Assembly: GCA_016928155.1 (NCBI GenBank)
Contig: JAFGLG010000002.1
Span: 124,001 to 188,000 of the forward strand
DNA: 64,000 bases
Direction: 5' to 3'
Origin: Candidatus Woesearchaeota archaeon
GTDB taxonomy: Archaea; Nanobdellota; Nanobdellia; Woesearchaeales; JAFGLG01
Shown piece after piece: positions 30,570-53,219 of this stretch. Position numbers and translations under genes: made by a program. Position 1 is the first letter of the stretch; each line of letters begins with the position of its first letter. Under the pieces are notes generated by a model. That model ran no database searches, had not been told where the DNA came from, and saw only the letters and a list, made by a program, of their open reading frames with translations.

Positions 30570-30770
30570 ATGGAAGTCAAGGCACAGATCAAGGAATGGG
30601 GAAACAGCTATGGCATCAGGATATCAAAAAGCGATGTCAGGAAATTAGGCATTGTGAAAGGAGAGACTGTCCACCTAAAGATAAGCAAAAATGAATATGA
30701 TATCGACCAGTTTATCGGCATATGCAGAGGAGCAAAACCATTCATAAGGGAAAAAGAGGACAGATATTGA
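30570..30770 (+). CDS. vapB: AbrB-type antitoxin VapB
   Basis: 66 aa with the SpoVT/AbrB swapped-hairpin pattern KEWGNSYGIRISKSDVRKLGIVKGE. Binds DNA and blocks the VapC toxin with its C-terminal tail. ATG 30570 fits a leaderless start after the TATA box; an upstream GTG-like frame start at 30546 is rejected because it lies within the operator. The stop overlaps the VapC start (TTGA). Confidence 0.87.
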   Translation: MEVKAQIKEWGNSYGIRISKSDVRKLGIVKGETVHLKISKNEYDIDQFIGICRGAKPFIREKEDRY

Positions 30771-31150
30771 AATATGTCATTGATTCTTCAGCGTGGATCG
30801 AATTGTTTCTGGGGAGTGCTGAAGGCAAGAAAGCTGCAAAAGTAATCAAGAACCCAAAAAATGTCATAATAACAAGCGATGTAACATTTGGTGAAATATA
30901 CAGCTGGGCTATGAAGAATGGTTTTGATGCTGGCAAATTAATGGGATGCATAAGACAAAATTCTGAAGTGTTTGAAACATATGTCAACATCTGGATCGAA
31001 GCAGCTGATCTGCGCGACAGGAGGAGAGAGAAAGCGAAGAAGTTCTCATTGATCGATGCCATCATCTACAGGATCTCGCAGATGACCAAGGCAAGGCTGG
31101 TTACAAAGGACAAGGATTTCAAGGGACTGAAGAATGTGATCCTGTTGTAA
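30767..31150 (+). CDS. vapC: PIN-domain ribonuclease toxin VapC
   Basis: 127 aa from TTG 30767, overlapping the vapB stop. PIN acids: D6 in YVIDSSAW, a Glu in TFGEIYSW, Asp in FSLIDAIIYR and TKDKDF. VapC toxins cut tRNA or rRNA with Mg2+. The TTG start gives the canonical N terminus M-K-Y-V-I-D-S-S; earlier starts would extend it into the vapB region. Confidence 0.87.
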   Translation: MKYVIDSSAWIELFLGSAEGKKAAKVIKNPKNVIITSDVTFGEIYSWAMKNGFDAGKLMGCIRQNSEVFETYVNIWIEAADLRDRRREKAKKFSLIDAIIYRISQMTKARLVTKDKDFKGLKNVILL

Positions 31151-31162
31151 TATTTCTAAACC

Positions 31163-31284
31163 TTTATAAATAACGAGTTTTGCTTATCTGATACTCCTTG
31201 GGGCTGTGGGGCAACTGTTTCGTCAGTTGAGTGCGTTAGCGACTCCTAGTCGCTTCGCGTCCGGAGTCCCTAGAAAACCTTATT
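31163..31284 (+). other. tRNA-Pro promoter and structured leader with duplicated tRNA 5' end
   Basis: TATA box tttataaa at 31163-31170. About 30 nt later GGGGCTGTGGGG (31200-31211) is an exact copy of the first 12 nt of the tRNA gene (31285-31296). Between them lie two strong hairpins: CAACTG-tttcgt-CAGTTG and GCGACT-cct-AGTCGC. The region is probably transcribed as the tRNA leader. Origin by partial duplication of the tRNA 5' end is likely. Confidence 0.6.
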
Positions 31285-31406
31285 GGGGCTGTGGGGTAGC
31301 TTGGATGGCAGGGCTCTTGCTTTGCCAGAGCAACTATCCTCTCTGGTTTGGGGCCAGATGACCCCGGTTCGAAACCGCTTATGCGGCGAATGTCCGGGCA
31401 GCCCCA
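31285..31406 (+). tRNA. trnP-UGG: tRNA-Pro(UGG) with insertions in D-loop and T-loop
   Basis: Acceptor GGGGCTG (31285-31291) pairs with CAGCCCC (31399-31405), discriminator A 31406. Anticodon stem TCTGG/CCAGA surrounds TTTGGGG; anticodon TGG at 31349-31351. T-stem CCCGG/CCGGG. The T-loop is split by 19 nt (31374-31392): bulge A-A^A, 4-bp helix TTCG/CGAA, bulge TG^T and inner stem CCGC/GCGG with a TTAT tetraloop, a perfect bulge-helix-bulge; removal gives the canonical TTCGAAT. The D-loop has a further insertion of about 30 nt (31305/31306 to 31335/31336) with hairpin GCTCT/AGAGC; its exact ends are uncertain. Removing both gives 73 nt, a normal tRNA. Confidence 0.85.
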
Positions 31407-31435
31407 GTTTTTAATTCTGGGTTGCGTATAATATC

Positions 31436-31478
31436 TTACGGGCACATCTTAACGAAATATTTATATATTGATGTGCCC
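31436..31478 (+). promoter_or_regulatory. Fic gene promoter inside an 8-bp inverted repeat
   Basis: GGGCACAT (31440-31447) and ATGTGCCC (31471-31478) flank a TATA box (tatttatatatt). TTACGGGCACA at 31436 recurs near the 3' end of the gene (32407). Candidate operator, or edges of an inserted segment. Confidence 0.5.
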
Positions 31479-31489
31479 ATACATATCAT

Positions 31490-32434
31490 ATGACATACAT
31501 TGAGACTATCAGAAGAGGGAATAAAAAATATTATTATATCACAAAGAACATTAGAGCAGATATTAACAGATGGAAGAAAATCAGAATTTATGTCGGAGAT
31601 AAGAAGCCAACTAAAGCAGAAATCAAGAAGCACGCAGAAGAGATTGAGAAAAGAGCAGAAAAAGAAGGCCTGACCAAATCAGAATATGTCTATTTGTCAA
31701 TTAGAGATGCTGAAACACTGCAGGATTTAAAAGAAAGCTATAAAGAGTGGGTGAAGAAAACACCTGAAAGCATCAGGAAAAAGTTTTATGATGATTTTGT
31801 TATCAGATTTACTTACAACACCAATGCCATAGAAGGAAATAGGCTTACTTTGCGACAAACTGCACTTATTCTCAAAGATAGAGTGCTTCCCTCTGGTGTG
31901 CGAGCATCTGATTACCATGAAGCTGTCAACGGGAAGGAGTGTCTAGAATACTTGAAATCATACAAAGGAGGATTAAACAACAAGCTTCTAGAGAAAGTGA
32001 ATGGTATTCTGACAAAAAATACTGATGTTAGTTATAGCGGGAGAATACGATTTTTTGATGTTAAGATTGAGGGTTCTAAACACACCCCACTTTCAAACGA
32101 GAAAGTGAAAAAACACTTATTGAATATGTATAAATGGTATAGTGCCAATAAGAATAAACTCCACCCATTTGAGCTGGCAACCCTGATTCATGCCAAAATC
32201 GCCTGGATCCATCCGTTTGAGGATGGCAACGGAAGAACTGCTCGTGCGATCATGAATTGGCTTTTAATCAAAAATGGCTATCCAATGTTCTTTATTCCAT
32301 TTTGGAGAAGAGAAGAATATTACATGACCCTGGAGGAAGCTGATAAAGAGAATTTTAAAGATTATGTAGCCAGAATGTTACGGTTGATTATTGACCAAGT
32401 AAGATATTACGGGCACAAAAGGGAGAAAAAATAA
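31490..32434 (+). CDS. Fic/DOC family AMP-transferase
   Basis: 314 aa. Catalytic Fic motif HPFEDGNGRTAR with H241; an upstream TNAIEGN (E115) matches the inhibitory helix motif (S/T)xxxE(G/N), making it a class II Fic protein that is autoinhibited. Residues 1-95 are a charged N-terminal domain. Fic enzymes add AMP or other groups to protein hydroxyls and often act as toxins or regulators. Promoter and gene are bracketed by short repeats next to the tRNA-Pro gene, and base composition is AT-rich, suggesting acquisition. Confidence 0.9.
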   Translation: MTYIETIRRGNKKYYYITKNIRADINRWKKIRIYVGDKKPTKAEIKKHAEEIEKRAEKEGLTKSEYVYLSIRDAETLQDLKESYKEWVKKTPESIRKKFYDDFVIRFTYNTNAIEGNRLTLRQTALILKDRVLPSGVRASDYHEAVNGKECLEYLKSYKGGLNNKLLEKVNGILTKNTDVSYSGRIRFFDVKIEGSKHTPLSNEKVKKHLLNMYKWYSANKNKLHPFELATLIHAKIAWIHPFEDGNGRTARAIMNWLLIKNGYPMFFIPFWRREEYYMTLEEADKENFKDYVARMLRLIIDQVRYYGHKREKK

Positions 32435-53116: not shown

Positions 53117-53219
53117 GGGTCCATGGTCTAGTTGGTTATGACGTCGCCTCGACATACACAGCAACAGGTTGCTGGATTCGGTACGGCGGAGATCCCCGGT
53201 TCGAATCCGGGTGGACCCA
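53117..53219 (+). tRNA. trnV-GAC: tRNA-Val(GAC) with a 29-nt anticodon-loop intron
   Basis: Acceptor GGGTCCA/TGGACCC, D-arm, T-arm CCCGG-TTCGAAT-CCGGG, discriminator A. Anticodon stem TCGCC (53144-53148) with GGCGG (53185-53189). Loop T32 C33 G34 A35 C36 A37, then intron 53155-53183, then C38. The central BHB helix is TCGA (32-35) with TCGG (53178-53181); bulges CA^T and TA^C place the cuts at 37/38. Inner stem CAGCA/TGCTG. Position 33 is C where nearly all tRNAs have U; it pairs in the precursor. Confidence 0.88.

Follow-up and report, generated by a model that had tools for sequence, protein, structure and literature searches.

In Pyrobaculum islandicum, a member of the Thermoproteales, the tRNA-Pro(UGG) gene has introns at positions 25/26 and 56/57 in addition to the canonical one (PMC4090602). 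Most reports of noncanonical introns at positions 20/21 and 59/60 concern Crenarchaeota and Nanoarchaeota (N. equitans) (PMC4090602), and tRNAs with multiple introns are also known from N. equitans, ARMAN and a few Euryarchaeota (PMC4033280). Reviews link noncanonical introns to splicing endonucleases of the (alpha-beta)2 and epsilon2 types (PMC4033280, PMC6379350, PMC12397907), and endonucleases that occur with such introns often have a special loop (PMC12397907, PMC4033280). The mark of broad specificity is a CSL or ASL loop of 11-18 residues with a conserved Lys near the active site (PMC12397907). The tRNA-Pro(UGG) gene described here is similar to that of P. islandicum, as the same tRNA species has several bulge-helix-bulge (BHB) introns beyond the anticodon loop that are predicted to be cut by the archaeal endonuclease. 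In contrast with the P. islandicum gene, its introns are located in the D-loop (~19/20) and the T-loop (59/60) and the 37/38 intron is absent, whereas its host differs from the Thermoproteales in belonging to Woesearchaeales rather than Crenarchaeota and in having an apparently alpha-only endonuclease instead of an (alpha-beta)2 enzyme with CSL. Compared with the archaeal introns at 20/21 and 59/60, the sites are essentially the same and follow the same BHB logic, and the T-loop site is very common in this order. As such, the kind of gene is already known, and what is unusual, judging from sequence, is the pervasive presence of D- and T-loop introns beside an enzyme that is predicted to be alpha-only and loop-less. 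In the literature searched, which did not extend to most subscription papers or GtRNAdb, we found no account that treats tRNA introns and endonuclease type jointly for Woesearchaeota.

The gene occupies positions 31285-31406 on the forward strand of the window, which is the whole 64,000-nucleotide stretch of DNA analyzed. Exon 1 (31285..31304, GGGGCTGTGGGGTAGCTTGG) contains the acceptor 5' strand, the D-stem 5' strand and the D-loop up to G18 G19, and is followed by the 29-nt D-loop intron (intron 1, 31305..31333, ATGGCAGGGCTCTTGCTTTGCCAGAGCAA), inserted after G19 at about position 19/20. Exon 2 (31334..31373, CTATCCTCTCTGGTTTGGGGCCAGATGACCCCGGTTCGAA) contains the remaining D-arm, the anticodon arm with the anticodon TGG (31349-31351), the variable loop, the T-stem 5' strand and the T-loop up to A59. 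At position 59/60, the 19-nt T-loop intron (intron 2, 31374..31392, ACCGCTTATGCGGCGAATG) precedes exon 3 (31393..31406, TCCGGGCAGCCCCA), which consists of T60, the T-stem 3' strand, the acceptor 3' strand and A73. In its unspliced form, 31285-31406 was not recognized as a tRNA by ARAGORN and was missed by the Rfam tRNA model, whose sole match in the window was another tRNA at 53117-53219, and at a loose threshold Rfam gave only a chance match in 31100-31490. When both introns were cut out, ARAGORN returned a standard 74-nt tRNA-Pro(TGG) with all arms, in which every stem and conserved position is intact. The initial annotation, which had described a tRNA-Pro(UGG) gene interrupted in both loops, was thus correct in its coordinates, identity and both insertions; it had also rightly expected a tRNA after splicing, although the product is 74 nt long and not 73 nt.

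Both introns can be folded into a strict hBHBh' motif, with a 4-bp central helix (H), 3-nt bulges on opposite strands, and outer (h) and inner (h') helices. In the T-loop motif, h is the 5-bp T-stem (31363-31367/31394-31398), H is formed by TTCG (31368-31371) and CGAA (31387-31390), and h' has 4 bp (31375-31378/31383-31386). The bulges lie at 31372-31374 and 31391-31393, with predicted cuts AA^A and TG^T, and this BHB, which had been drawn in exactly the same way in the initial annotation, is also the minimum-energy fold of the T-arm. In the D-loop motif, h is the 5-bp D-stem GGGTA/TATCC (31294-31298/31335-31339), H is GCTT/GAGC (31299-31302/31328-31331) with one G-U pair, and h' is a 9-bp helix of TGGCAGGGC and GCTTTGCCA (31306-31314/31319-31327). 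Its bulges lie at 31303-31305 and 31332-31334, with predicted cuts GG^A and AA^C. When the borders of intron 1 were moved by one nucleotide (TGGC...AGCA), the motif was weaker and the D-loop longer, and this placement was rejected. For the D-arm folded in isolation with nearest-neighbour energies, an alternative TTG/CAA pairing is 3.1 kcal/mol more stable than the strict BHB. This TTG/CAA helix was the only structure that had been drawn for the D-loop before, but the D-loop is not limited to a relaxed motif, since the strict GCTT/GAGC BHB exists.

In a blind BHB scan of a 182-nt region, which used no knowledge of tRNA, the two introns ranked joint first of 132 candidates. When BHBs were sought in other segments of the window, two were removed and the remainder was submitted to ARAGORN, none of the 247 segments gave a tRNA. 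With the exons fixed and the introns shuffled at the dinucleotide level, equally good helices arose in 30 of 20000 shuffles for the D-loop intron, where an inner helix of 5 bp rather than the full 9 was required, and in 20 of 20000 for the T-loop intron.

To compare the gene with its orthologues, we screened 352 genomes of the order using a pattern that detects tRNA-Pro genes only if their D-arm is GTGGGGTAGCYTGG; orthologue tallies are therefore not frequencies. A D-loop intron was present at the identical site in three other genomes, G246 (33 nt), G349 (28 nt) and G616 (18 nt), and all three interrupted genes splice in silico to a good tRNA-Pro(UGG). The inner helices of the D-loop introns vary in sequence yet still pair, with TGGCA/TGCCA in the present gene, CAG-GCAA/TTGCCTG in G246, TCAG-GCA/TGCCTGA in G349 and CAGC/GCTG in G616. 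In the central helix of the relatives, GCTT faces AAGC in G246 and G616, and TAGC, with one mismatch, in G349. The mature D-arm predicted for the present gene, TAGCTTGGCTATCC, is identical to that of an uninterrupted orthologue (L198), and the mature D-arm of G349 and G616, TAGCTTGGTTATCC, is identical to that of the uninterrupted L139. The gene of G246 has the same combination of D-loop and T-loop introns as the present one. Among other orthologues, several have the T-loop intron alone and several have T-loop and 37/38 introns, and tRNA-Pro(UGG) genes are intact in sister lineages of the class. In one further orthologue (L195, G281:C2:27000-27600), 37/38 and T-loop introns were observed along with a short D-loop insertion, so this gene may carry three introns.

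We found one endonuclease gene in the genome, encoding a 174-aa alpha-type protein with both the N- and C-terminal Pfam domains (PF02778 and PF01974), and the catalytic residues Y110, H120 and K151 are invariant in 80 relatives. Among the subunit types considered in the initial annotation (alpha, alpha-beta and epsilon), the alpha type is the one found, and this protein is the only endonuclease match in the genome. A gene for a beta subunit was not found, with a single PF01974 match (E up to 1) and a single match to the alpha protein (E up to 10), although a very divergent beta subunit could escape these searches. Likewise, the ORF of 174 aa is not a three-unit fusion of the epsilon2 type (~395 aa). 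The CSL/ASL insertion is absent, and the corresponding loop has 9 residues, as in 75 of the 80 relatives, compared with 8 in M. jannaschii. Lys at position 32 aligns close to ARMAN Lys161 and might have stood in for the ASL, but this idea was dropped because nearly all relatives have Leu, Val, Ile or Met at that site. The closest endonuclease relatives are from Woesearchaeota, in agreement with the DPANN-like host proposed earlier, and based on the titles of these records we place the window in Woesearchaeales.

The enzyme is similar to the alpha4 endonuclease of M. jannaschii (1a79) in its length, domain order and Tyr/His/Lys triad, and also in its fold. An AlphaFold2 model of a relative (L033, mean pLDDT 85.9) has 1a79 as its best fold match, with a TM score of 0.89 and 39% identity over the fold alignment, the alpha4 state of the woesearchaeal enzyme being a prediction. 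An acidic loop precedes the last strand in both enzymes, with the sequence DDEGD in the 174-aa protein and DADGD in M. jannaschii. The closest solved sequence for the catalytic subunit is that of the N. equitans (alpha-beta)2 enzyme (3iey, E 8e-38). However, the N. equitans enzyme includes a structural subunit besides the catalytic one and carries an insertion ahead of the catalytic His, whereas no second subunit gene was found here. Although the N. equitans endonuclease is listed as a broad-specificity enzyme (PMC6379350), no long loop is seen for its alpha subunit in our alignment, so the absence of the loop alone may not predict specificity. A single gene for RtcB ligase is present in the genome. 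By their predicted motifs, the two introns in tRNA-Pro(UGG) fit the usual archaeal tRNA-splicing system, and the endonuclease is probably a homotetramer of a single alpha subunit.

Based on these results, we consider it very probable that this sole tRNA-Pro(UGG) gene found is functional, and that its two BHB introns are cut by the alpha endonuclease and its exons joined by RtcB to yield a normal tRNA. We infer transcription, cleavage at the predicted sites and ligation. In the precursor, the T-stem would serve as the outer helix of the T-arm motif while T54-G57 pairs with the intron, and the D-stem would serve as the outer helix of the D-arm motif while G15-T17a (GCTT) pairs with the intron. 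The endonuclease, probably as a homotetramer of the 174-aa subunit, would then cut both bulges of each motif, and RtcB would ligate the exons to the normal 74-nt tRNA-Pro(UGG).

It is conceivable, though rather unlikely, that a strict BHB is used for the T-loop intron only, and that removal of the D-loop intron proceeds via the relaxed TTG/CAA structure, with an endonuclease less specific than its sequence suggests. In all four genomes, the D-arm folded at minimum energy takes the TTG/CAA structure, which is favoured in the three relatives (G246, G349 and G616) by 2.7-7.2 kcal/mol (the figure for G246 omits some loop pairs), and CAA/TTG is conserved in all four. The AA of the D-loop 3' bulge is also kept in all four genomes, and TTG/CAA pairing would explain this AA too. 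The conserved GC of RGCAA, however, is fully explained by the strict motif only. Moreover, the TTG/CAA structure lacks a pair of opposing 3-nt bulges that would define the cuts, whereas the strict motif has them and yields the D-arm of the uninterrupted orthologues. The absence of the CSL/ASL loop likewise argues against a broader enzyme. The strict motif is predicted to be the form that the D-arm takes when bound to the enzyme, in place of the more stable alternative. The suggestion that the gene implies an endonuclease of broad specificity was not supported, as a strict BHB can be drawn for either intron and the sole endonuclease found is of the alpha type, without CSL/ASL and with a fold that most resembles the narrow-specificity alpha4 enzyme.

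That the gene is a decaying pseudogene, or was disrupted by recent insertions while CCA is decoded by another tRNA, is very improbable. Such a state would account for a gene that is missed by standard programs and for a 19-nt partial repeat of its 5' end 85 nt upstream, but all stems and conserved positions are intact once the introns are removed, and relatives with otherwise perfect genes are interrupted at the same D-loop site. The genome (1.48 Mb, 17 contigs) is 99.7% complete, and no other tRNA-Pro(UGG) was found in it, the initial annotation having made its reading depend on the lack of a second copy. With respect to the other proline tRNAs, tRNA-Pro(CGG) is intact (L006) and tRNA-Pro(GGG) has a 37/38 intron (L019). 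An assembly error or chance resemblance is scarcely credible, for although the assembly is a 17-contig draft and the comparison set includes no relative of the same family, the D-loop intron site is common to four separately assembled genomes and the T-loop site to many, and the chance controls were empty or nearly so (0 of 247; 30 and 20 of 20000).

By in-silico splicing, T-loop introns at 59/60 were identified in ~13 tRNA genes of this genome. This count is a minimum, since genes with interruptions are missed by the initial search. These are Pro(UGG), Lys(UUU), His(GUG), Ala(UGC), Arg(UCU), Arg(GCG), Asp(GUC), Glu(UUC) and Gly(UCC), and four more with a long variable arm whose identity was misnamed by ARAGORN; five of the ~13 also have a 37/38 intron. 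In Arg(UCG), the D-loop is interrupted by an intron whose motif is weaker. We searched the order using the T-loop BHB pattern GGTTCRAAN{4,34}YGAANNNCC, with the reversed pattern as a control. The pattern matched 162 of 193 genomes, but part of this is background, as the control also matched many, if less often. In the present genome, there were eight matches against two for the reversed pattern; two of the eight gave no tRNA (L116 and L118), and two repeat loci already in hand (L117 repeats L030, and L120 repeats L026). Of the T-loop loci sampled, 17 of 23 gave a tRNA by ARAGORN after splicing. T-loop introns therefore appear to be widespread in Woesearchaeales on the basis of these matches, and the view that such a gene is unusual in a DPANN-like genome did not hold.

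Whether D- and T-loop introns spread in Woesearchaeales despite a narrow alpha4-type enzyme without CSL/ASL, because strict BHB motifs were kept, is in our judgment evenly balanced. If so, the spread of intron positions would need no broad-specificity enzyme, contrary to the usual view of co-evolution. In several T-loop introns of this genome, the inner helix is less clean than in Pro, with 0-2 contiguous inner pairs, and some of them may be nearer to the relaxed type; this makes the case for a narrow enzyme being sufficient weaker without overturning it. With the woesearchaeal pairing, the link between intron and endonuclease could be examined directly using a single protein and two short RNAs. 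Furthermore, many interrupted tRNA genes escape standard searches, so that both the number of tRNAs and the completeness of such genomes can be underestimated.

Further features were observed in other tRNA genes of this genome. Two different tRNAs with long variable arms (L027, G000:C7:104302-104362, and L029, G000:C5:166300-166386) have nearly identical 26-nt T-loop introns (TACTCTTGACCCCTTGAGTTTGGAAG/A), and the T-loop introns of L024 and L114 are similar to these. The near-identity in L027 and L029 hints at gene duplication or at intron copying between tRNA genes, as in Thermoproteales. A probable tRNA-Trp (L017, G000:C6:18045-18178) has a long intron with the C/D-box-like motifs GATGATG and CTGA, and C/D-box motifs in tRNA-Trp introns are known from other archaea. 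A tRNA with the anticodon UAU (Ile) has a 37/38 intron and a D-loop insertion (L016, G000:C7:188271-188399), and the tRNA at 53117-53219 of the window is tRNA-Val(GAC) with a 29-nt canonical 37/38 intron with a BHB.

Upstream of the tRNA-Pro(UGG) gene, the stretch 31198-31275 starts with the partial copy of the tRNA 5' end (TTGGGGCTGTGGGG..., 89% identity over 19 nt). This stretch folds well (-36.4 kcal/mol, z -3.5) and has no Rfam match; it may be what is left of a tRNA, or else a small structured RNA. The gene lies between a PIN-domain ORF (30722-31150) and a Fic-domain ORF (31490-32434), both of which are possibly toxin-like. In several relatives, by eye, the start of ribosomal protein L37Ae apparently lies downstream of tRNA-Pro instead.
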